NCBI GenBank assembly: GCA_014871385.1
Contig: CM026423.1
Coordinates: 1,277,128-1,341,127, forward strand
Source of the DNA: Ceratodon purpureus
Lineage: Eukaryota; Streptophyta; Bryopsida; Pseudoditrichales; Ditrichaceae
Length of the DNA: 64,000 nucleotides
Reading direction: 5' to 3'
Shown here: one piece after another, positions 3,223 through 53,200 of the stretch
Layout of the letters: each line of letters opens with the position of its first letter
How positions within the stretch are numbered: the stretch's first letter is position 1
Made by a program: the position numbers and the translations under genes
Notes under the pieces: model-generated
Database searches by the model: none
The model's input: the letters and a program-made list of their open reading frames with translations, nothing else
Told to the model about the DNA's origin: nothing

Positions 3223-6200
3223 ATGGCTAGACGGCCAAACTCCCTCGTACAGAGTGTCATCCGGCATAACACTCAAGACGTAGAAGGCAACTGGATCTCC
3301 ATGAGGGTGGATCGTGATTCATGGGTTATGCTGCAACCAGCGTCGGATGGGCCTTGGGGTTGAAAGGCAAGGCGCCATGGTGGAGGAAATTTTTGGGAGG
3401 CCTTCAAAGCGCAAATCAGAGATTTCTCCTGGATCTCCACGGAGCATGGAGCATGCAACCTCCATAAGGTGCATGTCCAGCATGCATATCAGCCACGACA
3501 TCTATGCTTGAATCCCGTGGAAGCAGCAACCAATTCGGGTATGGCAAACTACTTGTATGCGTCACTTTCAGAGGATTGGATACACCCTGCATCTATCCTT
3601 GGTCCCATTTTTGTGCTCCATGTCGAGATTGGGAAGGCAACACGGAATCGACAAAGCCACGCGGAGTTGCAGGACATAGATACATTCTTCCTTGGTCTTC
3701 TGTATTTGCCTCCAACAGGTGACACGCCATACGGGAAGGTTGAAGCACTCCCGCTTCCAGGATTCAACGATGTAGAGTGGCCTTCACTATAAGAATCCCG
3801 CGTTTTAGGTGACATCCCGAATCATGTCTAAAAAAATAAGTGGACGTTGTAAAGGATGTTGTGCAGACATGAGAACATCTAAGACGCAGCAAAAACAAAT
3901 GCAGACATCCGAAAAAACATGCAGACATCTCCGTAGCACGCGCATCTCCGGGTGATTTTGAGGGGCAGTGAAGTATGCAACGTGGACGCCACGTCGACGA
4001 CACTTCAGCAAAGTTTTTTCCGGGCAGTGCCACATGGAAGGAGGATGTCATCGCTGCCATGGTGACGTAGCGGACCACGTGGACCCGCCATTTTCTGACG
4101 TGGCAGCGTGAAATTCTGACGTGTCAGCCGCGAAGAAGTGACGTGGTTTGCCACGTAAGCATAGTTTCCGGTGATTTTTGAGTTAGAAATTCGTTACTGT
4201 AGACGTCATTGAGGACATCACCGTGATTTTTGAGACGTCTATGTGGTGACAACGTGATGTCCACGTCGATGTCTGTGCGGACGTAAACTGTGTCCGACAT
4301 TTGTTATAGTGGACATCCCCATGCTGTAGAATTTGCTATGCTTGACATGGCCATGTCAATGTGTACGTGATGTGTGGAAGGGTATTTTTGCAAAGATGAA
4401 TGTGTTTTGGTAGACATGAAGGTGTTTTGCAGACATGAGGGTGTTTTTTGTAGACATGCGAGTGTTTTTGCAGACATGAAGGTGTCTTTGCAGCCACAAA
4501 GGTGTTTCGATAGCCGTGATGGTGGCATTTGATCACAAGAAAACAAAGGAAAGAAGATCACATGAAGAAAGGAACAAGGGAGGAAAGGAGACAAGAAGAA
4601 GATGGAGAACAAGAATGAAGTTAGGAGAACCCCCCGGATTTTTTTGAAGTACCTTTCAGTTTTTAGGTTGCCATCTCTCCATTCTAGCTTGGATTGAGGC
4701 GTGCCTTAGCTTTTTGAAAAGCTAAGTTGATTGTGCATCTACCCTCAAAATCTCAAAAGCATAGGATCAAAATCCTCGGACTGTTTGCTAAAAATCCGAG
4801 ACCCTTCCTCCAGCCGCACTCCTTTGACAACCCCAACTTTGGGAGGCAATATCTCACTACCTATAAATCGGAATTGGACGTGCTAACTACCATTGGAAAT
4901 CCCTACAAGAGATCTACAACTATGATGAATCTCACTGTACTTGGAGAAGAAACAAGGGACTGATAGGGAAAACAATGGGAGACAGTCCATGGAGGAGGAA
5001 GGAAACACCAAAAGCTTGAAAACAAGCTCTCAAATACAAGGTGAGAAGCCGCCGAAGTGGCGGCTCACCCTAACCCTACCAAGGCTGAAAACCCTAACCT
5101 AAAGCCTTGATGGATGAATGTTGCCACCAATGAATGAAAAATGGATTATTGAACATCACCATGTCTCGACAGATGTCTGTGTCGACATCTTTCGAGACAT
5201 GCGGACATCTCCAAAAAAGAAAGAGAGAAGAACTTTGATATTGTAAATTTCATTTATAAAGAAAAAATAAAAAAAGATTCTTCAATCCCTCTCGGCCTTT
5301 TTTTGCTCCCTTTGCTGACCCTGCCCTTCTTGTGGTTTTTTTCACTGTGGGCAGAAAGTTACCTTGCAGCCCCGTAACTTCGCGCCCATTTTACCGTCCG
5401 TCAAAACGAGGTCGTTGTTGACATGGCAATTACGTGTCTACAAGGATGTCCTCTGCCACGTCCCCATAGACGCGGACGTTTTTCCAAACGTCTTTGTGTT
5501 TTTAGGATAGCGCGCTCGTGTCTGGTGACGATAAGCCCAGTTTATCTCAAAAAACAAGTTAACGTCTTCACGTTCCTCAAGACATGAATGACTAACACAG
5601 AGACATGAAAAAAACACGACCATGTTTTTGGAGAACGTCACCTAAAACGCGGGATTCTTATAGTGCTTTGCCAGACATGCACACATTTGAGGCGTTTAGA
5701 ACAAAGCTCACTTTCGAATTTTGCAAATGCTATGAAAGCAACAACTGGTAGCAGCTTCGTCCAATAGCAATGGTTTCTGCCAATCCATGTGAGGGTTGAT
5801 TTGTTTGCGGTAGCTGCTGACAGCATTAGGGGGACACTTGCACTGTTTGTTTTGAATAGTCCATCTAAGGCTCTGCTAAGGAATCTGCTGAACTTAGGGT
5901 GGAACGAGAAGTTCCACATTGGCCAAGATGTCATCACGTGCGTTGGCAACAGGTCCAGCATTGTTTTCCGCTATCATGTGGGAAGACAAACATTATACAC
6001 CAGGTTCATGTATACAAGGCATAGGGAGGCTGCCAGCAGTAAATGGGAAGCAATGGATTACCTACCAGAGGATGAGATGGTGGAAGTGTCTTGTATGTTT
6101 AGAGGGAACCTCCTGCCAACATTTGAAATTGGCAAGGCTTGGCCAGCATTCCACCTACGGCACGAAATTGCAATGGTACATAAAGATGACGTACCTGGGC

Positions 6201-10105: not shown

Positions 10106-11424
10106 GCATTTCCTCTAATGTATCATCGTACTCTTAGAGCACAAATCGAGAATACCAAGAGGTGGATCGGGGAAGAACCTACCATTCTAGTTCTTGATCT
10201 AAAAGGATTGTTGCATTGACTATACAAAAGTTGTGATGAACTGACGTGACAATGGAGTTCATATTCACTAGGGATACCTAAACTATGCCAACATCAACAG
10301 ATCCATCTCCCTTATCGGGAGCTGTTACCTCTCCAGCGTTGAAGATATTGTCAACTACGTTATGGAGAAGGACTACAAGGGGAAAAAAAAAAAGCAACAT
10401 TTTGGGGATCAAGATGGTAGTCCATCAGATAGGGCTCGGTGTCTACTACGATAGCAATCTTAAACCCTAATTGTAATAACTCCCGCTATTGGAAATTCCG
10501 CTACAACAAACGCTGAATTGACTAGAGACAACGATACGTACCTGGCTACTGCGCACAATTGTAACCGAGAGCTTACCAATTTGTCAACCCCACACGTCGG
10601 CCGACCTTGAAGCACCGAACCAATGAACTACAAGACCTGCACTAGCAAAGAGACAACGATTCAGAGAAGGAAGGCATTCCAGAAAAAAGAAGGTTCACGA
10701 AAAATTTAGAGAATCAAGCATAGTAAAAGAGAAACTCTCACTATAAGAAACCCGTATTTTGGGAGATGCTCTCCATAAACATGGTCGTGTTTTTTTCATG
10801 TCTCTGTGATGGTCATTCATGTATTGGGGAAGGTGGGGACGTTAACGCGTTTTTTGAGATAAGTTGGGTTTATCGTGCCCAGACACTGGCATGTTATCCT
10901 AAAAATGCAAAGACATCTGGAAAAATGCCCGCGTCAATGGGAACGTGGCAGTGGACATCTCTGTAAACACGAAATTGCCACGTCGGCAACGGCCTCGGTT
11001 TGACACACAATAAATAAGCGCGAAGTTACTAGGTTGCCAGGTAACTTCCTTCTTGCAATGAATTAAACAACATGAAGAGTTGGGTCAGCGAAGGGAGCAC
11101 AAAAAAGTTGGGAGGGATTAAAGAATGTAATTCTACTATTTCTTTGTAAACGAAATTTACAATATCAAATTTTTTTTCTATTTCTTTTTTGAAGACGTCC
11201 ACATGTCTCGAGGGTTGTCATAATAGACGGACGAGCCATAAAATTGTCGTGTAGTCACGTGACGGACGTGACGGACAATTATCGGACGAGCTCCCCCGCG
11301 CGAGCAAAATTACTGTCCTCACAGTTTATTACTGTTTACCATAGGTGGCGCCCGTCGTCGCATCTGCTCGCGCCCGCAGGCACACGCGCGATCACTCGGA
11401 TGCGCGCGCAAAAAAAAAATAATA

Positions 11425-11529
<105 letters not shown>

Positions 11530-11616
11530 TTTTGGTTTTTTGGTGCGCGCGCCCACATGCTCGCGCCTGAATGGTCACGCCCGTAGGCACGCGCGTGAGC
11601 ACTCGGGCGTGCGCGC

Positions 11617-11641
11617 AAAAAAAAAAAAAAAAAAAAAAAAA

Positions 11642-11682
<41 letters not shown>
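11617..11682. repeat. poly(A)-TC-poly(T) tract between GC-rich inverted arms
   Basis: About 25 A, then TC, then about 39 T, with GTGCGCGC on the left and GGTGCGCGCGC on the right in inverted orientation. Such a tract would extrude readily as a hairpin. Confidence 0.9.
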
Positions 11683-11683
<1 letters not shown>

Positions 11684-12144
11684 GTGCGCGCGCTAGAGTG
11701 CTCGTGCGTGAATGCTCACCCGTTCGCACGCGCCTGAGAGCTTGCGCGAGACTTTCACAAAGAAATTGTTCATTTCATTTTGGTGATAGTTCATCCTTTG
11801 GTCATGTGCATGTAGGCATGCACATAGGAAAAAATAAAGCACCAAAATGAAATGAACAACTTTCTTGGTGGACGTTGGGTGCGTGCGTGTCGCTGAGCGT
11901 ACAAAAAACTAGCACAAAAATGAAATGAAACCGAACTCCCAAAACTCATGTAGATAAGTTCTTGTATGATTTGAATCCTGATTTTCGTACTATTAAAGTT
12001 ATTCATGTTAAATGTAGTTTTATATTTTGTTCATAATTAAATATGTAAATAACTTAAATTTCATGTTATTCTTGAATTTATTTACCATGTTTCATTCAAT
12101 TGGCACATATAATAAGTTTACTTAACAAATATAGGAAAAAAAAT

Positions 12145-12790
12145 ACATCATAGACTTGGAATGATAAAATAAATACATGATAGACTAAGAATGGAAGAAA
12201 AAGAAAACAAGAAGATAGAATGGAATAATAATGAACTTAAAAAAGGACTAGATGATAGAACGGAAGACAATCGGAAAAACTGAAAAAGAAAAAGATGGAA
12301 TGGGTGACTAATGGAAGAATAAATAAATAAATAAATAAATACATCATCCACTAGAAATGGAAGAAAAAGAAAATAAGAAGATAGAACGGAATAATAATGA
12401 ACTTAAAAAGAACAAGATGATAGAATAGAAGACAATTGGAAAATTTAATACATAAAAATAAAAGATGGCATGGGCGACTAATCGAAGAAAAAATAAATAA
12501 ATAAATACATGATAGACTAAGAATGGAAGAAAAGAAAAACAAGAAGATAGAATGGAATTATAATGAAGTTAAAGGAATGAGATGATAGAATAGAAGACAA
12601 TTGGAAATTTTAATATATAAAAATAAAAGATAGAATGTGAGACGAATGGAAGGCTAATAAAATAAATAAATACATCATCCACTGGAAATAGAAGAAAAGG
12701 AAAACAAGAAGATAGAATGGAAGAAGAATAGAAAAATCAACAAATAAAGGGATAGAATGGGAGAAATATAAAAAAAAGTCATGGGTAAAA
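12145..12790. repeat. Purine-rich tandem repeat, about four copies of a 160-180 bp unit
   Basis: Each unit contains GGAAGAAAAAGAAAACAAG followed by AAGATAGAATGGAA and GAAGACAATTGGAAA and ends with ATAAATAAATACATCATCC or a variant. Copies begin near 12170, 12350, 12510 and 12675. The strand is almost free of C. Open frames on the minus strand here are low-complexity artefacts. Confidence 0.75.
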
Positions 12791-13074
12791 AGCCATCAAG
12801 TGTGATGAACGACATAGTCAACAATGAATTGACGTTTCAATAGATTATGATTTAATCAACACGAAGATAGTGGAAATGTACACAAAATGCTCTAGTTTCA
12901 ACAAAATTAAACTAACTCCAAAATCTTCTACTAACCTAATTATCTATGCCTTTTGCTACTATTTTTATTTAATGTCATATTACAAAAATGTTCTCATCAC
13001 TCATTGATCTCCATCACATTGCGTACAGAGCAATTGAGCTCCTTGGACTAGCAACAATTATTTGTGCATAAAAT

Positions 13075-13268
13075 TGCAATGAACACCTTCTTGATCGAAG
13101 TCCGATGCAAGCTATCGGGCGAGTGCGGACGGGCGCGACTACTTGGGCGCGAGCATATCGGCGAGTGCAAAGGAGGAAGTAGTACCAAAATGAAATGAAC
13201 AACAACTTGGTGGAAGTCCGGTGCACGCCATCGGGCGAGTGCGGACGGGCGCGAGCATATAGGCGAAT

Positions 13269-13309
<41 letters not shown>

Positions 13310-13770
13310 TTGGCTGGTTTCTGTGTGCGTTTTTGCTGATATGCTCGCGCCCGTCTTCGCGCGCTCGATTGCTCGCGCCCATGTGCGCGCGCCCGAGTGC
13401 TCGCACTCAATGGAGGAAGTAGCACCAAAAGGAAATGAACAACAACTTGGTGGAAGTCCGACGCACGCCATCGGGCGAGTGCAGACGGGCGAGTGCGGAT
13501 GGGCGGGAGCATACGGGCAAGTGCGAAAAAATTTTATTTTTTTATTTTTTATTTTTATATTTTAAAAAACTTTGGCCGGTTTCTGTGTGCGCGTTTGTTG
13601 GTATGCTCGCGCTCGTCTGCGCGCGCCCAAGTGCGGATGGGCGCGAGCATACGGGCGAGTGCAAAAAATAAAAATAAAAATAAATATAAAATAAAAAATA
13701 AAAAATTTCGCACTCGCCCGTTTGCTCGCGCCCGAATGGACGCGCACGAGCGCGAGCGCGCCCGAAAGTC
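13075..13770. repeat. Array of GC-rich hairpin cassettes around A/T-rich loops
   Basis: A unit containing AACAACTTGGTGGAAGTCCG, then GCCATCGGGCGAGTGC and GCGCGAGCATA, is followed by an A/T tract (13271-13307, about 13520-13570 and 13663-13707) and then by the inverted GC arm (GGTTTCTGTGTGCG...TATGCTCGCGCCCG). At least three cassettes lie in tandem. A related arm near 11860 carries ACCAAAATGAAATGAACAAC. No gene is present. Confidence 0.75.
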
Positions 13771-15458
13771 AGCGCCAGGTTAATTCCTTTTACCCTTACC
13801 ATGAGTCAACCGGTCAACGCCCTTATCGGACGGACATGGGGGTGTGTCTTGTCACCATGACGGACTAACGGACTAACGGACGGTCTGTCTGTTATGACAA
13901 CCATGCATGTCTCGGAAGATGTCGACAGAGACATTTGTCGAGACATGGTGACGGTCATGCATCCAACGTTTGTTCATTAGTGGCAACATTCATCCATGAA
14001 GGCCTTAGATTAGGGCTTTGAGCATTGGTAGGGTTAGGGTGAGCCACCACTTCCGCGGCTTCTTATCTTGTATTTGAGAGCTTGTTTTCAAGCTTTTTAG
14101 AAGCCTTCTCAATCTATATTGATTTTGTCTCTCTTCCTCCTTCACTTGTAATGGTTAGTTTTTAGGAGAAGGAAGGCTATGGGCCTCCTTCTCACTCCTC
14201 TTGATCTTCTTTTCCATCCTATTAGTACTTGTATTGAGCTTCATTAGTTAGATGGTGTTTTCTTCCTTCTCCATGGAGTGTCTCTGATTGTTTTCCTCAT
14301 CAGTTCCTCGTTTCTTGTCCAAGTAGAGTGAGTTTTGACAAATCTGTATATCTCTTGTAGGGATTTTCAATGGTAGTAAGCACGTCCAATTCCAAGTTAT
14401 AGTGGGTGAGATATTGCCTCCCAAAGTTGGGGTTGTCAAAGGAATGCGGCCGGAGGAAGGGTCTTAATTTTGTAGCAATTTGTCCTAGGCTATTGATCCT
14501 ATGCTTTTGATATTTTGAGGGTAGATGCACAACCAACTCAATTTTCCAAAAAGCTAAGACACGCCTCAATCCATGCTAAGATGAAGAAATGACAGCTTAA
14601 AAACTAAAAGGTACTTCAAGAAAATAGAGGGGGGTTCTTCTAACTTTATCCTTGTTCTCCATCTTCTTCTTGTCTCCTTGTTCCTTTCTTCATGTGATCT
14701 TGTTCCTTTAACTTCCTTGTGATCAAATGCCACCTTCATGTCTGCAAAAACACCTTTTGACACATCACGTCACCTGAATCCTATTTTAGGAGATGTCAGC
14801 ACAGTCACGCATATGCTAAGACAGACATAAGCCCTGACATCCATAATATCATCTTTAAGACAACTACAGACAATGACTTGTCATCTTGGATGTTAGCAAT
14901 GATGTCAACATTGACATGACTATGTCAATCATGGCAAATTTTGTGACATTGGGATGTCCACTAAACCAAATAACGGACATAGTTCATGTCCGCACAGACA
15001 TCAGCGTGGACATCACAATGTTACACTCTGACCTCTCACAAACCACGGTGATGTCCCGGGTAACGTCTACAGCAACGCACTTCTGATTCCAAAATCACCG
15101 AAAACTATGTTTCCGTGGCATGCGACGTCATTCCTTTGCAGGTGACATGTCAAAAGTTGGCGGGACCACGTGGTCAAACACGTCACCTCTGGCAACGATG
15201 ACATGCTTACCTATGTGGCACTACCCGTCATAAACTCCGGTGATGTGTGGTTGACATGGCCTCCATGTTGTTCACTTCTCTGCCCCTCAAAATCACCTCG
15301 AGACACGCGTACTATAGAGATGTCTCCATGTCTACATTTGTTTTTTGTTGCATCTTAGATGTTCTTATGTCTGCACGACATCCTTTCCCACATCCACTTG
15401 CTTTTTTAGACATGATTTGGGATGTCATAAAAAACACAGGTTACTTAATATAGTGTCT

Positions 15459-17468: not shown

Positions 17469-18157
17469 GAACATAAAGAGGAAGAATCTCCCTTTCCAAC
17501 CCAATAATCCTTGACGGTTGCAGCTCTGTGCTTGAAATTGACTACTGTCTAACAACCAAACCGGATTACAGCAACGCCTGGTCGCACCAGCGGAGTGTAC
17601 AGCAAAGGCTTTGCAACCGGCCGTCAAAGCAACCAACAAAAATAATAAAAATAATAAATACAAAAAATAAAATAAAAAAAAGACACAAAGATAACCAACT
17701 GCCGGTGCCAAGTACCCTCCAGTCCATAGCAACCTTGCAGCTTGCACCGCCGAATCTCAACCACATGCACCCAACTTCAAGCTTCCTTTGGCCACAGCTG
17801 CAACCTCAAGCACACAAGTCCTCACACCCTACAGTCGCTTCTCCGCTTTGAAGGAACCAACTAGACCAAAATAAAACAAAAGAACACTAGACCACAGCCG
17901 CCACCGACTACAAATCCTTCTAGCCACCAAGTCTCTACTCCATCGAGTTTCCAACGGCCTGATCATCGGCAAAACTAAGGCTGCCTCCTCTTCCAAGTTT
18001 CAATTGCACTTGTCCTTCAGTTCAACAAAAATAAAAATAAAAAAAAATAAAAAAAATAAAAAATAAAAAATAAAACTAACACCACCGCTTGAGGTCAATG
18101 AAGCCAACTAGTTCCGCTCCCGAGCACTCCTTCTCACCACATCCAATATTGCCTTTG
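17469..18157. repeat. Long direct repeat, copy A (pairs with 22991-23680)
   Basis: Begins GAACATAAAG and ends ATTGCCTTTG. About 689 bases match 22991-23680 with only a handful of substitutions and one A-tract length change. The minus strand holds an open frame with a hydrophobic Phe/Leu-rich segment (FFLFYFLYLLFLLFL) in both copies. The repeats directly bracket the Crypton-like gene region. Confidence 0.95.
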
Positions 18158-18195
18158 ATTAACAATGTGAATGTCATATGTAGGCTATGTTTCAG

Positions 18196-21100
18196 GCGAT
18201 GTTATTGTTTCAAGCGATGTGGGAGTTCATGGAGCGGAGGATGAGTCTAGTATGCATTTGTCTAATTTACTCTATGTAATGGTGATTGTCTTGAGATGTT
18301 GATTGTTTTTGTTATTTATACTAGAATTTTTCTTTGTTGATTTGTATGACTTGAAGAGGCCGATGTACTCGCGGTAGCACAGTTTTGAAATCATTTTGAC
18401 TTGTGTTTTTTTATGTGTTTCGCAGGCGATTTGGAATATGAGGGTGCCAAGGTTGAACTTGGTCAATATTTACTTCATTTAATGTTTATTTGTCTTGAGA
18501 TGTTGATTGTTATTTTTAAAATTATTTAAGCTCATTGTGTAGAGCATGGTTGCTGATAAATTGTTTGTGTTATGTTTTGTGTTTGCAGATGTGATTCCTT
18601 GTTCTCCTGTTGGTTCTGTTGCAGCATACAACGTTCTAGATGGACTTGTTGAGATCCGAGCCAACGAGGAAGGATACGTCGACAGAGGTAATTCTCCTGT
18701 AGATTTTAGATTGTTGTTGTCGTTTTCTGATTGGTGTAGAGTATCTAACTTCTGGTTTTAATATTTTCAGACAACGGTGTCGTATATGTTTATAGTACGC
18801 GTGAAGCTGAAATTCGAAGAAGATTGTGTTTTAATTACATACATGATCCTAGGGTAGCTAGCTTTTATGGAGGTAAATATAATCTGTCTAATTTTAATTG
18901 TTTATCTATTCGTCTTTTATTTTTCATACTTCATTTCTAATATCTGTGTTTCTGCAGTTTCTGGTGCGGTGATTAGTAATAATGACAAGCCAGTTGCAGA
19001 AGAGAAGGCCGAGGATGAAGAGAACGGTGAATTTAAGGAAGATATTGATGACGATTGCCAATTCTAATTTGATCGAGATGATGATGACGAGGAAGACCCA
19101 AACAATTTCTTTATTCCGAAAAGCGGAAATTTCCCAGAGGATGATGGTGATGCAGCGGGAGACAAATATTCAAAATCTTCCTAAGGATCAGCGTAATTCT
19201 GGTTAGCTTTTTTACTCTCTGTGACATTTGTGTTAATTTTAGAATCTTGCATTGTAATTTTGATTTTCAATTTAAGTTTATAATCTTTATTTAACACAAT
19301 TCTAATATCTCTTTGAGTTAATTGTGATTTCTCTTAGGCTTGCCTGGTAGAACTAATGGGTTTTTTTTGTCGCAGATTCTACTTCAAAGGGTACTAGATT
19401 TTGACCTCTTGATGAAACAGAGTTGAAGAATGCTTCCATGGGGGGTGAAAGACGCAGCGGACATTCTGAGAAATGGGCCGAGAACGCCTTCGATGAGTAG
19501 AGGAGATTCCGCGGATATTCTACGGAGAAGACTATTGGTGAACTGTCAGAAGCGGAAGATATTCGTGGTTTTGTGCAGCTCCTCTATGATTTCATCTGCA
19601 AGTTACCAAACAGGACGGTAGCCTGTATGAACCTGGATCGTAAGTTTTCTTGAACTTTAATCTCTAGTTTATTCTTGGTTGTTCAAGTTTTGTTGATTTT
19701 CAATTTCTGCATATTTTTGTACTTTCACTTATTTACTGTTTATTGTTTTCAGATTGCGGATTTTAAGTTTGAGAGTTGCAATTTCAGCTTTGAATTCAAA
19801 GCAGTTTGAGAGTTGGAGTTTCGGTTTCAGTTTAGAGTTTACGGTTTTAGTATACAGTTTAGTCTTACTATTTTTTGTACTTTCAGGTTGCAGAATATGA
19901 TAAGGTCTATTGGGTGAATCATCCACTGTCAGCAAAAGTTGCGGCTGCAACGGACTTCGAGCGTCGAGATACCGTTTAACATAATGTTAGACCCTCGTTA
20001 TCGTCGAGTCAAGTTTGCAGGTATAGAAAGTGTGCGACGTTCCTTCAAGCGTGGTCTCGGACTGAAGACGAATACTTCTGACGTACTGACAAGGGAGGAG
20101 GAGATACTGATCTTGAAGTCTCCAGCATCGTCGGTATTGACCCCATCTGGACTAACTCTCAGGATGGTATATTTTTTCTGTCGTAATTTCTTTATTAGGG
20201 GCCAAGACGAATTATGTGCTACGCACGTGGGGTAGTTCGAGCTCCTTTCTGATGGTGGCGTGGAGTTTCTGAGGTATTCGATTTTTTATTTTTTAGGTTG
20301 AATCTGTATTTTGAATTTGTTATCCTAACTCTATTTTTTGTGATAGCCTAGCTCTAGCTTAACATGTTCGAATAACTTTAATGTTTTTTACAGTTTTAGC
20401 TTATAACACAGCGCAACGATCTTTAATGCCTGAATGATATACTTTTGTTTTTCAATTCAGTGCATTTTCTTATCTTAGAGGCACCTCATCATTTTTGCAG
20501 AAAGCCATATGTAACTGATTCATTAGCCTTACTCTATTTTTTGTTTTTCTTTTTTCAAATATAATCCCAGCTTGTCCAAGACTTATAAAATGGACATAGA
20601 CCATTGTAGCAAGCACAGTATCAGGCAAAGCCTCGATGTATCTGATTTTGATGTAGTTGATGCTTACAAGTGAATGAGCGCTAGATGGCCTAAATTTAGC
20701 AAACGAGACTTAGAGGATAGAAACCCGCATCCTTATCTTTCTGATGGCAAAAACGAATTTCAAGTATGAAGACAAGATTTGGTTCCAAAAGAGGGCCGTG
20801 GGGAAAAACACGCTTGGGAAATCCGTGAAGACTCTAATCGATTCTACTCCTGGTAAGTGTTTCTGAGCTTAGAATTCCATTTCATCTTTTAATATTCTCT
20901 TATATTTTTTACTTCAGGTTTTGTGATTTCTTTTCCTTGTTTGAAGTTTCTAATTTGTTTTTCTTACTGTTTCAGGGATCATTGTCGGTGACAGGAAGTT
21001 TTCTAACAAAACTCCACGCCGAATGGGAATTACACGCATGGCTGAGGCTCATATCTCCATCGACAAAGGCATGATGATGACAGGTCACAGGGATGCTAAA

Positions 21101-22148
21101 TCTTATAACCAATACAATGCTAACCCCATTAAACTGCAGATGGACATCTGTCAGAAGATAATATCTGGCAATGGTAATAACTATTCCGTAGTTTTGTCTC
21201 AGGAGCTGAAAAAGGTAAGTTTCTGATTTTATTTTCGCTGTTTTGCACATAGTCTAAGTTTTTCATATCTTTAGTTTTTTGGTTTTTTTTCTTACATATG
21301 TTGTTGTTTCTTGGTGTTTTTACAGAATCGTGGAACTTTTGCTATCACTATGAAGTCCGGAGTCAGTTTGAAAGCTGAAGAGAAACCAGAATCGGAGTCC
21401 AAAGCTGACGTCAAGGCGGGAAGAGTGGAAACAATATCAGCAGTTACGAATTCAGAGTCGGCTTCTCTAGCAGAGGTGATTTACTTGCATAATTTGTTTA
21501 TCTTTTTGCTATTTGTTTTTTGCATAGTTTCTTTTTATCTTTTATTTCAGGAAGGGTAGCACTATGAAGAATATCAGTAAGTTCACTTTGGAAACTTACT
21601 TGATACCAAGAATTCAGAGTTTGTGATATCTCTTTTTCCTTCAGTCTCTCTTAGCGTGTCTATGTGTATTTCTTTGACTCGATAGTTACACTCTTTCTTA
21701 CGCCAATTTCATCTAGAACAAATTGCCTGTTCGTTGCTTTCCCTTATGTCTCTGATTGGTATGACTTTCGGGTGTCGATTTTTTGCTATTCGTTATCTTC
21801 TTTGATAATGACTTTTCATTTTATTTTGTGCAGGTGTTGTCCAAGGCTATTCGGGGGAATATGTTTCGTAAATCTAGTACCTCTGAAGAGGTAAGTTTGC
21901 TTTCTTCATCGATTTGTTTCTTATCTTATATTTGATTTTCATCTGTATCATTTTCGTATTTATATATCTTCACCTCTGGTATTGGAAATAGTATTTTGAC
22001 AATTCTAATTTTGCTGCAGTGTTTTGTTACCAATGGGAATACAGCAAGTGGCTTTGTTTTTGGTTCAGCCTCTGGCTATAATTTTTTCAACTTTAACGGC
22101 CCGATTGACCCCAACCTTCTGAGTAAACTAATGTCCAATGTTTCCAAG
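18196..22148 (+). pseudogene. Crypton-like (DUF3504/ZMYM-type) tyrosine recombinase gene, intron-rich and decayed
   Basis: I can follow at least 13 exons by GT..AG borders: about 18196-18249, 18426-18461, 18589-18687, 18771-18872, 18958-19201, 19376-19639, 19887-20273, 20571-20852, 20976-21214, 21326-21475, 21551-21576, 21834-21890 and 22020-22148. Early introns are all phase 1. The sixth exon carries a ZMYM/QRICH1-like N-terminal core (KWAENAFDE then RRFRGYS, GELSEAEDIRGFVQLLYDF, with KQDGSLYEPG in a neighbouring frame). The seventh carries IMLDPRYRRVKF, the LTREEE segment and the region of the first catalytic Arg (FFIRGQDEL). The eighth and ninth carry WFQKRAVGKNTLGKSVKTL, NKTPRRMG (HxxR box with Lys for His) and the box with the nucleophilic Tyr, GHRDAKSYNQY. 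Nonsense codons (TAA 19065, a Trp-position TAG in exon 6, others) and frame changes show decay. Such enzymes recombine DNA through a 3'-phosphotyrosine link. Confidence 0.75.
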
Positions 22149-22990
22149 GTGAAGTATTGTTGTACATTGAATTTGATTATCAACTTTGTGATTTTAGTTT
22201 GCTGATATCGAACTTGTTTGTTATAGTTTTTAACTTCTTTAATTGTCTTGTGCCAAGTTGAAGCTGTTCCTCCTATCAGTTCGCAGTAAATGATTTTAGA
22301 TTCACTTTTTAGTGTTTCAAATACAGATTTCTACAGTTTCAGATTTGTATAGGCTAGAAGTTTTGTTCTTTGCTTTAGCAAAATTTTCTTTTGGAAATGA
22401 CCAAATTGTAAATGACCCAAATGGTTTTCCAACCATCATGGAACTACTTTTTTGAAAATGCCATGGAGATGGTTAAGTTAAAGTATATGATTTGTATGTG
22501 ATAGATTGTGAATAAGTGTGGTGTTTCTTAGGGCTTTTTATTCATTCTTTTCTTACTGCAACAATTCTGTCGGTATTCAAATGAATTAAAATGTATATGC
22601 TTTTTGTAATATTTTTTGCTGTAATTAAAGATTGAATGAACTCTCAATGGACTCGGTATTTAACTCTTTCCCTAAAAATAGTAAAGCCTACTGTTGATAA
22701 GCCTAATTGTTGAAAAGCCTATTTCCTCAAAAAGTCCAACGCAGTAATAATAATTTTTTCATAAGAACAGTGAAATGTTTACTTTTTCAAAGTTTATTTC
22801 TCAGTTTTTTATATAAAAAAAAAAAAAAAACCAAAGGAAAAATTTCGCGCCAGCCCAGGTAATCTGCCTCCGAAGGTTATTTGGCGTGGCGGGTTTGTTA
22901 GCCAACAAACCCAGGAGGCAAACCGTCGCGGGGGATATCACAACGGAAGGTGCCTTCGCGTCAATAGAAAAAAATTCAAAAGTGTGTTAC
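22149..22990. other. T-rich tail of the Crypton block with a strong hairpin
   Basis: No exon is recognised. A perfect 9-bp stem with a 4-base loop (GGGTTTGTT AGCC AACAAACCC) lies at 22891-22912, followed by CAAACCGTCGCGGGGG and then direct repeat copy B. GGCGCGAAATTTTTCC-type sequence stands near 22850 on the minus strand. Confidence 0.6.
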
Positions 22991-23680
22991 GAACATAAAG
23001 AAGGAGAATCTCCCTTCCCAACCCAATAATCCTTGACGGTTGCAGCTCTGTGCTTGAAATTGACTACTGTCTAACAACCAAACCGGATTACAGCAACGCC
23101 TGGTCGCACCAGCGGAGTGTACAGCAAAGGCTTTGCAACCGGCCGTCAAAGCAACCAACAAAAATACTAAAAATAATAAATACAAAAAATAAAATAAAAA
23201 AAAGACACAAAGATAACCAACTGCCGGTGCCAAGTACCCTCCAGTCCATAGCAACCTTGCAGCTTGCACCGCCGAATCTCAACCACATGCACCCAACTTC
23301 AAGCTTCCTTTGGCCACAGCTGCAACCTCAAGCACACAAGTCCTCACACCCTACAGTCGCTTCTCCGCTTTGAAGGAACCAACTAGACCAAAATAAAACA
23401 AAAGAACACTAGACCACAGCCGCCACCGACTACAAATCCTTCTAGCCACCAAGTCTCTACTCCATCGAGTTTCCAACGGCCTGATCATCGGCAAAACTAA
23501 GGCTGCCTCCTCTTCCAAGTTTCAATTGCACTTGTCCTTCAGTTCAACAAAAATAAAAATAAAAAAAAATAAAAAAAAATAAAAAATAAAAAATAAAACT
23601 AACACCACCGCTTGAGGTCAATGAAGCCAACTAGTTCCGCTCCCGAGCTCTCCTTCTCACCACATCCAATACTGCCTTTG
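22991..23680. repeat. Long direct repeat, copy B (pairs with 17469-18157)
   Basis: Nearly identical to copy A. To its right the A+C-rich sequence continues without a break, whereas copy A ends abruptly at the Crypton block, so copy B may be the more complete one. Confidence 0.95.
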
Positions 23681-30290: not shown

Positions 30291-32320
30291 ATGTCACGAC
30301 ACGGTAAGTTTGTGTTATAAAATTTTGCGATTCTCATAGAAATGGATACAGTCCTCAAAGAACTCTGCAGTCGGATAGAACATGCATAAACAACGGAAGG
30401 CATTGTGATGTAAGCAAACTCTGAGAATGGCATAATTTGAAACCATGAGATTGTTGTCACAGGATGTGAAGTGCACCATGTACTCTGTCTCCTCACATTG
30501 GATTTGCTGATCACGGTTTCTCACTTCCCTCAGATACCACGGAGAGGATGGACAACCGCTCAGAGTCGCAGACGTTCGCAACGCCGTACCGTCCTACTGC
30601 ACTGCCGGCAGAAGGTATTTTTTTTAAAATTTTTAATTTTTCTTCTTTCAAAACTGGTATCTGCTCAAATGAATTCGGGTATTGACAATAGACCTGCACA
30701 ACACACAAACCCCCTCCGATGCCTCTATGAGTAAATGTATAAACAAAAGAACAGTACACATGCATTTGCAAAACACATAAAAAGAATCAACTGAACTAAT
30801 AATGTCATGGAATTTCAGGTTCAAGCATGCTCCCTCCTCTCGCACAAGGCCGCCCAGCAAGTCGAGGGCCTACTGTAACGGCAGTGCCACGCGCTCCATC
30901 GGCTCTGAACAGCAGTGCGCGTGGTCCTAGTCCTCCGAAAAGGGCACGCAAAGACAGGGGGCCGAATTGGCTCCCACAAGAAATCGCTGCACTTATCGCA
31001 GCAAAGCGCGAGATGTACCTACAGGAATTGGACACTGTGGACGGGAGAGATTTGATGACTCCCGAAACCAGCAAGTGGATTCGTGTCTCACATTGTGTTA
31101 ATGGTGCAGGTTATTCGCCAATTGTACGAGACGGTCCGGCATGTAAGGCAAAGTGGAACCAGTTGGTACCAGACTATAAACGCATTGCGGACTATCTGAG
31201 TAGAACAGGTCAAAATGCTGCGGACTACTGGGATTTGAGCCCTGCCGAGAGGAAGAGTGAAGGACTGCCGAGAGTATATGCCCAAGAAACGTACGACGCA
31301 ATTCACGAGTGGTTCGGGGGGCGGCCTATGATCCAACCCCCCCACATGAGAGACACTTTGGCCTCGAATGACGGCAATTACCAGCATCCCGCAGCTCAGA
31401 CTTTGCAAGGAGACGAAGGTGATTCAGAACCTGATACAGAGGACCCCATTGACTACACGCAGCGAGACTACGTACAGGCCACGGACGACAGCACTCCGCC
31501 ACGGTCTCCTCGCGTTGCGTCGTCTACACCATCACGCTCCGCTAGCGCCACCGAATGTGCGAGAACTCCCAATTCCCGACCCTACAATGGACTTCCCCCA
31601 GGTATCACCCCACAAAACATCAGCTCGTCAGATACTTCACATTTCGGTGCTGGACGTCGGCCAGGAAACACATGTGTCAAGAGGAGGAATATGACCGGGC
31701 ACACCGTCATGGCGGAGGCCACAAAGGCAACAGGTGCAACAATGGCTCAACAAATGCAGGATATTGCCAAAGCCTCGAGGGAGCTGGAGCGCTCTAAAAT
31801 AGAGGTGCAGTTGAAGCTTTTTAGCGAACAAATGTCGTACCAGCGGGAGAAAGATAGGAGGCTTTATGAGAATGCCAGCATTGCCAACGACAATGCGAGG
31901 CTAAGTATCCTGAAGCAGGGAGAGATGGTGTCATGTCTTTCCCAGCTGTCCCAGGTACTCAGTCAATCTTTAAACGTTAACAAGAATTACAGTTTCCAAG
32001 CCGGGCATCAAGCAGCCGGGGAAAAGGACAGCACATCCACCGGTGCATTCTATGCTGCAGGCACTTCACCTAAACCGGCGTACACACCAAGCCCTATGAA
32101 CGAGTACCCGGGTCGACCAGTGCTCGCCCACAGCAGGGGAGGCATTCCTAGTACATCATTCGCTTTTCATCAAGACAAAGAATGCTTCACCCCCGGCCAC
32201 GATCAAACTGGCACGGAGACAGCAAGTGTGGATACCGCACAGCAACTAGTAGGAGCCTTCGCGGCGATGTCAAGCGATCCCCATGCCACCGCAGCAGATG
32301 GAGGCAATGGAGCCAACTGA
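30291..32320 (+). CDS. Harbinger accessory protein with Myb/SANT-like domain (ORF1)
   Basis: Three exons join in frame: 30291-30303, 30534-30614 and 30819-32320, giving 531 residues from an ATG at 30291. The borders are GTAAGT/CAG and GTATTT/CAG. The first 60 or so residues are low complexity (Pro, Ala, Arg). A Myb/SANT or trihelix-like DNA-binding region follows (about residues 75-170: WLPQEIAALIAAKREM, CKAKWNQLVPDYKRIADYL, YDAIHEWFG). An acidic/Ser-rich linker and a coiled-coil-like stretch (ASRELERSKIEVQLKLFSEQ) come next. In PIF/Harbinger elements this partner binds the transposase and the element ends and brings the transposase into the nucleus. The frame is intact with no stop. It faces the transposase gene across about 390 bases that include an A-rich run near 32630. 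Confidence 0.85.
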
Positions 32321-32712: not shown

Positions 32713-33879
32713 TCAAGGCCCCTGGTTCCTTTGCAGAGTCAAGAAGACCGCCAGGTTTTGACGCACTTGAGTCCCCCCTTCAGTCACAACGTCCTCCCCG
32801 TTCTGGTTTGCAGGTTCCTCTGGCTCAACGTCTTCGTCAATTACTTCTCCCTCCAGCCCTTCTCTGCGTAAAACTCCTAGGAGCTCCTCCACCTCCTCAG
32901 GCGACTGACCGAGAAGAACATTGTGCAGGATTGCGCACGCAAGAATAACGTCTGGCATAAAAGTAACATGCAACTGAGATTTCACAAGTAGTTCCTTGAA
33001 TGTTTGTTTTAAAATCCCGAATGCGTTTTCTACCACACACCGACCCCTCCTGAGCCTCCTGTTAAACAGCTGTTCGGCTATGCTAAGCTGGCCGGGCCCC
33101 CGCTGCGGTACCATCAGCCACGGTAATAAAGGGTAGCCAGAATCTCCAATCAGGAAAGGAGCGAACCCTTCAACAGCCATTTCCCTGTCGAAGAGGTTGT
33201 TATGCATCCCTAAATGATGCAAGGAAGATCTTCTGAGCATTCTAGCGTCATTGGTGGAACCTGGCATGCCGAGAAACAAATCAATGAAACGTTTATTGCT
33301 ATCTACAACAGCCTGGCAGTTAAGAGTATAGCCCCCGGACTTGAAATAATAGTAATCAGCAGGGCCATGTTGTGGTTTACTGATAGAAATATGAGTCCCA
33401 TCAATGGCTCCTACAACTGCAGGTAACCCGCAAAGGTTTCTGAAGTCTGATTGGCATTCCCTGAGTCTATCCCCCCTAGGCCAAGTGAGTTCATGCCGCA
33501 TTGTTTCGGTAATTGCGTTCACAACCTCACGCAAAATGATCGAGACCGTGCTTTTGCCAATGGCAAACATCTCCGAACAAATTAGAAGGCTTGCCCCCTG
33601 GGCTAACTTAAACAATGTACATGCGACTCGAATGAGAACAGGGATAGCAATTCTGTAACGAGTATCTTGCCGCTCAACATGAGGCCTTAACAAGTCAGCC
33701 AATGCCATGACAGACCTCTTGGACATTCTGAACATCTGCAGCCATCTGTGATCGTCATACTGTTCCAATAGAAAGCGACTGAACCATGTTGTTGATCGGG
33801 GGCGCACCCAGAATCCAAGCTCTTCGTCAAGCATAGGGTACAAAGTGGAGAACCTGTAGTGATTGAGGCACAAACTCAA
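32713..33879 (-). CDS. PIF/Harbinger transposase (DDE_Tnp_4)
   Basis: The open frame covers about 388 codons, with the first ATG in this frame at about 33834 (MLDEELGFWVRPR). Catalytic residues of the family are all visible: the first Asp in VGAIDGTHISI, the second in LIGDSGYPLLPW and the Glu in VENAFGILKQTF. Typical family signatures such as YRIAIPVLIRVACTLFKLA, YYFKSGGYTLNCQAVVD and PGSTNDARML are present. A segment on the same strand at about 33880-34102 (MFALAAWIILQLLSEQ, then an acidic stretch) lies in another frame just upstream. It may be an N-terminal exon joined by a short intron, or there may be one frameshift. The C-terminal tail is acidic and typical. The enzyme would excise and reinsert the element at TWA sites. 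It could be active if the N-terminus is intact. Confidence 0.88.
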   Translation of the reverse strand: MSLCLNHYRFSTLYPMLDEELGFWVRPRSTTWFSRFLLEQYDDHRWLQMFRMSKRSVMALADLLRPHVERQDTRYRIAIPVLIRVACTLFKLAQGASLLICSEMFAIGKSTVSIILREVVNAITETMRHELTWPRGDRLRECQSDFRNLCGLPAVVGAIDGTHISISKPQHGPADYYYFKSGGYTLNCQAVVDSNKRFIDLFLGMPGSTNDARMLRRSSLHHLGMHNNLFDREMAVEGFAPFLIGDSGYPLLPWLMVPQRGPGQLSIAEQLFNRRLRRGRCVVENAFGILKQTFKELLVKSQLHVTFMPDVILACAILHNVLLGQSPEEVEELLGVLRREGLEGEVIDEDVEPEEPANQNGEDVVTEGGTQVRQNLAVFLTLQRNQGP

Positions 33880-50254: not shown

Positions 50255-53200
50255 AGGTAGGAGCACCCATAAGCAAGCGTGTATCCATGGGCGAGCCCTA
50301 TATTTGTACCCATTGGCGAGCTTTTCAGTCCTATCACTGGCTGCAGTGAAAAAAAGGCGGTAATGGATGAACATGGGAACATAATTAGGTCCAGATGGGT
50401 TGCTTAGAGGTTCTATGGATGACAATGAATAGTAGCCTTGTGAAAAATAGAGAGGTAGTTGGAAGCTTGGTTTAGGGTGCATACAATGGGTGTCTTAAAG
50501 GCTTCTACGCACAATTAAAGGTGTAAGTGGAGGCGGATCATCTCATTTAATGGGATATATATGGGTGCTAGAGTGGCGGTTTAGAGTAAGTAAAAGGTCA
50601 TTAAAATGTAACTTTTCAAGGCGGCTATGGAAGTACCAGCTCTTGGTATAAGGTGCTCATTGTTAAACTGTGATGTATGGTTGTCTTTTCTATGTCTTTC
50701 CTCTTGTTCTTATGCTCTAACGTAGTGACTTAGCTATAGTCTTCTTGACGTGGTTAATTGTGTTAGTATTTGCTTGTGTCTACTATTGTTATTTGATTTT
50801 GTTGTCAACATGTCAAATTCATTGAGGGAAAGTGATGAGTATTTAGAGGACAGTTTTAATGAGCCTGAATCATAGGCACCTGAGTTACAGCAATATGAAA
50901 TGTCCAGAAACGGGGGGGTGGCTCGAAGGTGGGCTCCAGGTTGCAACAACTATGCATCCCAGGAGTCAGATCAGCTTGAGTTCGATGTGAGTGGCCGAGG
51001 TTGCATGCGTGCATGGAGCCAAGGTGTGAACAGTAGAGGCGGTCGGGTGAGCAGCCAAGGATTACACGGCAGATGGCAGTCTCCATACGTTGCAAGGAGC
51101 ATGGATCCCGGTACCGGGCCGAGAGGCGAGCGTCATGACTTCCTGCAGTCGGAAGCTGCAATTCCACCTGCGCAGGCAGCGTCGCCGAATGCACTAGGAG
51201 ACGTCGACAATGCACAAGGACAGCATGGACAAGTAGCTAGAAATCCACGATCAAGAAAAAGAACCGGGACATGGTCTGACGAGACCTTGGCTGCGGCAAT
51301 TGCAGCAGTCGATGCCGATGGGAAGCTGCGGACTGTAGGTCGGGATTTTGGAATACCAGCCTCCTCTCTCCGAGATCATGTCTACGGCACAGTGAGACAG
51401 CGAAAGCGAGGAAGGGCGGGAGTGCTCACGGCAAAAGAGGAATCCGATCTGGTCACTTGGATGTTGAGCATGCAGGATCATGCGCATCCAATTTCGGTGC
51501 AAGAGCTCCGGATCAAGGTTGCGGAAATAACTCAAGAACGCTGGATCCCGTTCACCGAAGGCATTCCCGGCAGGGGCTGGATGCGGTGGTTCCGTAGGAG
51601 ACACCCCGAACTCACACTGAGAGCTGCGCAGGGATTAGAGGAAGGTCGGGCGCGAGGTCTGAACTCCGTCAGCGTAGCTTCATTCTACGAGAACCTGCGG
51701 CAAGTTTATGAGAAACATCAGTACTCCCCATCCCAGATCTGGAATGCCGATGAGTCAGGAGCTCAAGCCGGCCGAAATGGAGGTGGGACTCTGGTTTTTG
51801 CAAGACGTGGGAGTAGATCTGTGCATACAACAGTGCCAGATAATAGGGAGCACATAACTGTGCTCTCATGCGTGAATGCAGCAGGTGCGTACATCCCTAA
51901 TTTCTACATCTTTAAGGGAAAACGTAGGCAGCGAAATTACATAATTAGATGTGAGCCTAAAGCATGCATGGCAATGCAGCCGAACGCATGGATGACAGCA
52001 TCTCTATTCTCAGCATGGATCTCGCATTTTATTAGCATCGTGAAAGAAAGATATGGGATTAGCATGCAAAACAGACACTTACTGGTACTTGATGGACATG
52101 GATCACATGTCACCTTAGAGGTAGTTCAGAAGGCTAGAGAGCAAGGACTTGACATCCTGACATTGCCAAGCCACACAAGCCACAGACTTCAGCCATTAGA
52201 TGTGAGCATCTTTAAGCCATTCAAGGTAGCATTCCGAGCATGCAGAGATCGTTGGACAATAAACAACAAAGGAAAAGGGGCTTCTAAAGAAGACCTTGCA
52301 GATTGGGTTTCACAAGGACTGAGGAAGGCTCTCACCATAGACAAGATCCAGAAAGGATTTGCGGCCACTGGAATTTGGCCTCTGAATCCGAACGCGATGG
52401 AGAAGTACATGCAGCCCAGTTCGTGCTTTGAGGAGGCAGCAGGTTCAGACTTCGAAGGCGCCTCCGACTCGGCCTCTGACTGCGACTTGGATGCGGTGAC
52501 TGCTGGACACGGCCCTGGGCCTGCAGAGGGTGAAAATGGCGAGGGAGGTCCTGCACAGGAAGACCAATTTCGAGACCCACATTTCTTTGTGGCTTCGGAT
52601 CCCGACCTTGGCTCTGACGGTGACGGCCACGCTGCTCAGGACTCGGAGGAAGATATTGGCTCCGCTGCAACAGCCCGCAACCTGTTTGCGCTACCTCAAA
52701 TTGTGCGCCGCACTCCACGAGCTCGCAGAATGGAAGAGCCCCTAGTCGACTACTCGAAATCCATCATCATGACCTCTCAGGACTACATTGACGCAATGGA
52801 AGCAAAGGCAGCCAGAAAATTGGCAGTTGCAAAAGAGAGGGAGGAGCGCAAGATTCAAGCCGAAGCCAGGAAGCTCTAGCGAGAAGAAGAGAAGACCCGG
52901 AAGGAGGCGGAGAAAGTGATGCGCAGCATCCAGGCCGAGAGGCGTAAGGTGGAGCGCGAGCGAGAGAAGGCCAGGAAGGTTGCTGAGAGAGCGAGGAAGA
53001 AGGCGGAAGCTGAAGCACTCAAGCGCCAGAGAAGGTCGGGGGGATTCATGGCGGGGGGAAGCTCGGCAGCGCAGCATGCGGATCAGGCGGAGAGTCTCCG
53101 CCAAGAGCCGTTGTCATCGGCTAGGGACAGCCAAGCCTCCAACGGACTCCACGTTTGAGCATGGGAGCGCTCTCATGTTGTGGGAACCAGATCATGTTTT

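Follow-up and report, generated by a model that had tools for sequence, protein, structure and literature searches.

In the moss Ceratodon purpureus, a locus on contig C3 carries an intron-rich gene resembling the tyrosine recombinases of Crypton transposons, and it raises the question of whether this gene belongs to a plant lineage of mobile elements or is a domesticated host gene in decay. To address it, we analyzed a stretch of 64,000 nucleotides (C3:1277128-1341127, hereafter named the window) together with related copies from the same genome. Our main reading, to which we give a probability of roughly 0.85, is that the locus is a dead copy, truncated on the left, of a large DNA transposon whose intron-rich gene encodes a tyrosine recombinase (YR) of the DUF3504/Crypton type, which the element would use to move. 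The remnant extends over 18158..22991 on the + strand, wider than the 18196..22148 delimited by an earlier sequence-only reading; its right part and right end are kept and its left part is missing. A search of the whole window with the left-end sequence gave no match. From 18200 to 22989, the remnant aligns in five blocks, at 75-92% identity, to a stretch of the same genome on contig C5 (L025, C5:1740000-1749999).

The plant-like setting first recognized from the letters was borne out and fits a moss. Flanking open frames in the window match a P-type cation ATPase, a methylpurine-DNA glycosylase, ASF1 and two kinds of DDE transposase. One of these, a DDE_Tnp_4 transposase (32716-33879, - strand), lies beside a Myb/SANT-like ORF (30803-32317, + strand), a pairing that we take to be a Harbinger-type transposon layout. 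The 667-aa open frame at 50876-52876 (+ strand) combines a Tc5-type helix-turn-helix with DDE_1 and is apparently an uninterrupted transposase. Inverted repeat blocks with 76-88% identity face each other at 3810-5665 and 10739-15427. An Rfam search of the window gave no match.

The seven peptide strings on which the sequence-only reading was built are all found, in the order proposed, in + strand translations between 19405 and 21226. They belong to one gene, as indicated by a DNA copy of one exon elsewhere in the genome (C5:1744525, 91%), by 20 further matches and by matches of the protein of a relative, L038, whose queries reached E values down to 1.7e-64 with the window alone as search space. 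Three exons lie upstream of the recombinase core, all features of the gene being on the + strand: PCSPVGSVAAYN...EGYVDR (18588..18688, approximate borders), which has a closely similar translation in L025; n1 (18770..18874), 80% identical to its L038 counterpart (E 6e-16); and an acidic, stop-broken exon (18960..19205, approximate borders) with a similarly acidic translation in L025, to which the surrounding DNA block 18200-19340 is 75% identical. The core itself consists of four exons. Exon e1 (19387..19640), the N-terminal part, is delineated by its L038 match and its splice sites, and contains stops and a frameshift; e2 (19887..20274), with the arginine of the RG motif, contains two stops and is 76% identical to L038 e2 (E 1.7e-64); e3a (20560..20854) contains a stop and a frameshift and has lost the conserved acceptor; e3b (20976..21214), with the KxxR, GH and Y motifs, is 75% identical to L038 e3b (E 1.5e-39). 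Further downstream, a conserved stretch with an open translation (22015..22150) is a probable exon; in most fetched copies it is recovered as a separate block, at or overlapping that stretch, with 68-80% identity. The proposal of an intron-rich, multi-exon gene stands, with seven exons backed by relatives; the proposed minimum of 13 was not confirmed.

The window copy is dead and left-truncated. In-frame stops are present in the core exons at 19402, 19498, 19915, 20233 and 20671, with a further one at 19065 in an upstream exon. Two frameshifts map within 19590-19614 and within 20735-20763, and the acceptor used by relatives before e3a no longer ends in AG. Because of these stops, frameshifts and lost acceptor, this copy is a pseudogene. 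In a tree built from this genome's copies only, its branch (0.121) is more than three times that of its sister L025 (0.035). The suspicion that the gene was decayed is thus true of the window copy; the family, on the other hand, holds intact cores.

The family assignment was examined with Pfam profiles. When the window pieces were joined with X at the stops, DUF3504 was matched at E = 0.0082 and 16.6 bits, below the curated cut-off of 29.7, so that the window alone does not carry the proposed assignment; two relatives do, L001 (part of L043; E 4.3e-8) and L038 (E 6.5e-8) both being above that cut-off. In an alignment of seven rows, six relatives plus the window, DUF3504 is found at E<=1 in every row (best 3.2e-8), with weak matches to Phage_integrase in three of seven and to PriCT_2 in two of seven (best 0.082); at E<=1, no other Pfam family, DUF3435 included, matches these rows. 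Residues R184 (RG motif), K321-x-x-R324, H347 and Y356, the latter placed nine residues past H347, are invariant in the seven rows; we take them to be the YR catalytic positions. The usual H of the HxxR motif is replaced by K in all seven. A PDB sequence search found no relative, and an AlphaFold2 prediction for exon 3 was unusable (pLDDT 34.5).

The intron organization is shared by the copies. The three core introns, read by eye, are GT-AG-bordered and identically placed in L025, L026, L031, L036, L038, L039 and L040; in the distant L043, also read by eye, the first two are present and the third is absent. The same seven copies, of 20 fetched, have an intact four-exon YR core: none of the four exons contains a stop, and no more than one residue is missing, though upstream exon n0 of L031 is interrupted by a stop. 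Among the other fetched copies, L043 is open but distant, and most of the rest show stops, frameshifts or partial exons. This organization bears on whether the element could be a YR retrotransposon of the DIRS or Ngaro type whose reverse transcriptase (RT) was overlooked. Such elements also use a YR; however, no RT is encoded by any of the 13 ORFs (90 aa or longer) that lie in the leftmost 4.9 kb of a 10.8-kb copy (copy A, C5:16635672 to 16646472), nor by six scanned ORFs of L038/L043, and an element copied through RNA would tend to lose the spliceosomal introns that are conserved here. With no RT among the scanned ORFs and with introns retained, this origin was rejected as highly improbable.

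The recombinase gene is repeated throughout the genome. We searched 362,488,568 bases in 151 contigs; C6 accounts for 110,524,308 bases and eleven others of C1-C13 for 16-29 Mb each, to be compared with a 360-Mb genome with sex chromosomes of more than 100 Mb, about 30% of the genome, in the available part of a published description (PMC8000587). A search with one window exon gave 22 matching places, counting the exon itself. With exon e3a of L038 as the query, 97 rows were obtained (weakest E up to 3.6e-4) and merged by hand, second pieces being joined, into 92 loci, including the window, which are distributed over every contig from C1 to C13. The 110-Mb contig carries 36 of the 92 YR loci, with about 28 expected from its length.

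Between lineages, pS reaches 0.55-0.90 over 389 codons and pN only 0.09-0.18, which argues that the YR enzyme is under purifying selection and has been kept functional over a long time. Conversely, L038, L039 and L040 differ from one another by only 2-7 changes, pointing to recent movement of that group at least. Copy A and a copy on C1 (copy B) are 99.4% identical over their right 6.3 kb and 91-98% identical in shared blocks further left, with unrelated flanks. Together, unbroken cores and near-identical copies suggest that the transposon family has probably moved recently. Four other copies (C6:102984653, C6:78764336, C1:25721180 and C12:7250452) have a similar length of 11.2-11.6 kb and similarly scored left ends, and a 268-aa open frame covers exon e3a in each; they look like another recently moved group.

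Both ends of the element could be defined. The window copy terminates on the right with GTGTGTTACG (22982..22991, + strand), an end shared with 12 other copies, and the flank starts at 22992. A scan whose pattern required GTTA, the ends of five copies having been found earlier by pairwise comparison, recovered the right end in 13 of 21 stretches, the window among them, as GTTACG 11 times, GTTATG once and GTTACA once; the other eight show no right end under this pattern. The L043/L044 pair has a different right end, CTTAACG. On the left, the element begins as [NNNN]G-TAnAGGGTGAGCC..., a palindrome of about 140 bp starting with TAnAGGG and strong in copy A (z -9.2 relative to shuffles). A G directly precedes the TA in all 22 left-end rows that were read, two of which represent one duplicated locus. 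The five bases at the left end are TTACG, as at the right end, in three of the 22 rows, and NNNNG in the others. The left 4-mers nevertheless resemble TTAC, with 36 matches for 22 expected (P 0.00035; 20 sites, assuming 30% A, 30% T, 20% G and 20% C). Two of the 22 left ends were dropped from this test, L064, which is shifted, and L068, a duplicate of L067. The left ends L067 (C4:8814150) and L068 (C7:14485180) have identical flanks in the stretch shown, and the pair is accordingly read, from this identity, as one insertion copied by segmental duplication of the surrounding stretch, not as two separate insertions.

The window offers empty and filled versions of one target side by side. A host segment of 690 bp, with no strand assigned, is present at 17469..18157 and again at 22991..23680, with 99% identity (6 substitutions and 1 indel). 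Together with the preceding sequence, the left copy keeps an uninterrupted, empty target, ...GATTATTG|AACATAAAG; the right copy adjoins the filled right junction, where the element's GTTACG is followed by the same AACATAAAG. The first 92 bp or so of the repeat belong to a host repeat family found at six other places in the genome, and the four of these that were read are all uninterrupted through the ...GATTATTG|AACATAAAG point. From the empty left copy and the filled right junction, the window target would read TATTG|AACAT, with the element placed after the G. This suggests insertion without target duplication, the window's own left junction being gone. We also asked whether the 690-bp repeats could be LTRs or a giant duplication of the target; both readings were rejected, since no further full-length match to the segment exists in the genome, its first 92 bp or so are host repeat and its left copy corresponds to the uninterrupted site.

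These observations are consistent with the following scheme. By analogy with YR biochemistry, the recombinase would join the two ends into a circle with a predicted junction ...AAGGGTG-TTACG-TAAAGGGTG..., and the circle, with TTACG at its junction, would recombine at loosely matching targets. The TTACG core, or a sequence one change away from it, would stay on the right end. Since a G precedes the TA in the 22 left-end rows and TTACG is kept on the right, insertion appears to take place behind a G; TTAC-like targets would be preferred and no duplication would be made. Tn916-type integrative elements are bacterial and conjugative, and their YR integrates them at loosely matching targets, leaving variable bases beside an end; the moss element is like them in mechanism only. 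As for the shape of the window locus, an empty and an occupied allele may later have recombined unequally, joining the end of the host segment to the middle of the element. A tandem duplication could have had the same outcome. Either event would have cost the element its left part and placed a copy of the 690-bp host segment on each side of it.

Ends and copies also settle the second option offered by the sequence-only reading, a domesticated Crypton-derived host gene that is now decaying. The many introns of the gene would suit a host gene, and animal genomes keep DUF3504-type genes derived from Cryptons, as described in the accessible part of a 2011 survey (PMC3212892). The same source, however, describes these animal genes as devoid of most catalytic residues, and the moss family is present at 92 loci; its ends are conserved at unrelated sites, some copies are recent and near-identical, and the catalytic positions are kept. 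For the family, domestication is ruled out because the gene is multi-copy, has defined ends at unrelated sites and retains its catalytic positions, and we regard it as extremely unlikely. The same features fit the first option, a plant Crypton lineage, and we read the family as a moss lineage of Crypton-like transposons, that is, a known kind of element with unusual ends.

To delineate whole elements of this Crypton-like family, 40 of 124 candidate left ends and 40 of 60 candidate right ends were scored. A YR exon lies 5.1-18.5 kb downstream, on the same strand, of 30 of the 40 scored left ends; none of the 40 has a YR exon in another arrangement within 25 kb, and ten have no matched YR exon. 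A right end in the correct orientation was found within 30 kb for 22 of the 40. The resulting spans are 7-12 kb in 18 of these 22 pairs and 0.5, 13.1, 17.6 and 25.4 kb in the rest, the 25.4-kb pair, on C3, being possibly not a single element. The shortest pair, C6:17084093-17084636 (544 bp), contains no YR exon and, known from its coordinates alone, is probably a non-autonomous copy.

Near the left end, copies A and B contain a second open frame (ORF2; 175 and 253 aa, respectively) on the opposite strand, 1.1-1.2 kb from the end (L045:739-1266 in copy A, with its counterpart in copy B). Pfam found no family above cut-off for ORF2 of either copy, DUF2196 being matched at E 0.058. When 150 of 476 candidate places were scored for ORF2 relatives and 27 distinct ORF2 rows were compared with the left ends, 14 of the 40 left ends had an ORF2 within 9 kb, in opposite orientation in 12 of these 14. 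For the other 123 ORF2 rows, no left end of the 40 lies within 25 kb, and a matched YR exon within 25 kb is absent for 131 of the 133 rows checked. With most rows far from left ends and YR exons, ORF2 belongs to another abundant repeat as well.

Second frames and variable lengths invite comparison with larger mobile elements. A plant cargo-carrying YR element that works like fungal Starships would account for sizes that vary from 7 to 18 kb and for the opposite-strand frame at 12 of 40 left-end loci. Yet ORF2 is shared with another abundant repeat and matches no known function, no host-like cargo gene was recognized, and DUF3435, the domain used by Starships, matches none of the seven YR rows, so that this reading is an unlikely one. 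YR integrases occur in large DNA viruses and virus-like elements. The locus could be the leftover of such an integrated element, for which these integrases and the second frame of some copies would speak; against it, the scanned ORFs contain no viral hallmark, a PHROG search gave no match, none of the 71 IMG/VR stretches that fit the search pattern was a confirmed relative, and 18 of the 22 measured copies span just 7-12 kb. A viral origin is hence very improbable. In GTDB bacteria and archaea, 31 stretches fit the pattern and none was a confirmed relative.

Beyond the moss Crypton-like reading of the locus itself, we lean slightly toward a broader picture: mosses may have their own long-lived and recently active Crypton-like lineage, mostly of 7-12 kb, with an intron-rich YR gene and, at one end, a palindrome of about 140 bp, and inserting behind a single G without duplicating the target. 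In some of its lineages, a second, opposite gene shared with another abundant repeat could mark an early stage in the making of a cargo-carrying YR element in a land plant. Intact and near-identical copies would also make such a moss a plant system for studying Crypton integration.

In the available portions of the literature, land plants are seldom associated with Cryptons. The 2011 survey names no land plant among the hosts in its accessible part, where a figure key names a Chlamydomonas sequence (PMC3212892), and the accessible text of a 2022 review of land-plant transposons does not contain the word "crypton" and does not count DIRS as a land-plant member (PMC9033089). A table of a 2015 survey, as far as that source is available, lists Crypton among the superfamilies in all its taxonomic groups (PMC4438587), and presence in plants has therefore been tabulated before. 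The word "Crypton" also occurs in the available parts of four plant papers (PMC8245426, PMC13084152, PMC4743950 and PMC6482515). Among titles and abstract starts of the open literature, we found no description of a plant Crypton, one known only from Repbase or subscription papers being possible; in the open literature searched, no paper mentioned Crypton together with Ceratodon.

Compared with the Cryptons described in the available part of the 2011 survey (CryptonF, S, A and I; PMC3212892), the moss element likewise has a YR of the DUF3504 kind, with no RT found here; its two ends are not related by terminal inverted repeats, it occurs in several copies at unrelated sites, and it has a probable non-autonomous derivative. 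Its own features are the moss host, the greater length (7-12 kb in 18 of 22 copies), the left-end palindrome of about 140 bp and K in place of H in HxxR; the likeness drawn here is one of domain and features. Fungal Cryptons have matching 4- or 6-bp direct repeats at their termini, whereas the left bases of the moss element are variable and target-like and match the right 5-mer in three of 22 rows; the absence of terminal repeats is a feature of animal Cryptons. The animal genes KCTD1, KIAA1958, ZMYM2-4, QRICH1 and WOC share the same Pfam domain but, in the accessible part of the survey, are fixed host genes whose catalytic residues are lost (PMC3212892), in contrast to the mobile moss gene, which keeps its catalytic positions. 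Fungal Starships, as far as described in the available part of their source (PMC12134995), are likewise YR-driven DNA elements larger than typical transposons. They differ by their DUF3435 captains, their many cargo genes and their size of 15 to ~700 kb, the moss element having no DUF3435 match and no recognized cargo.
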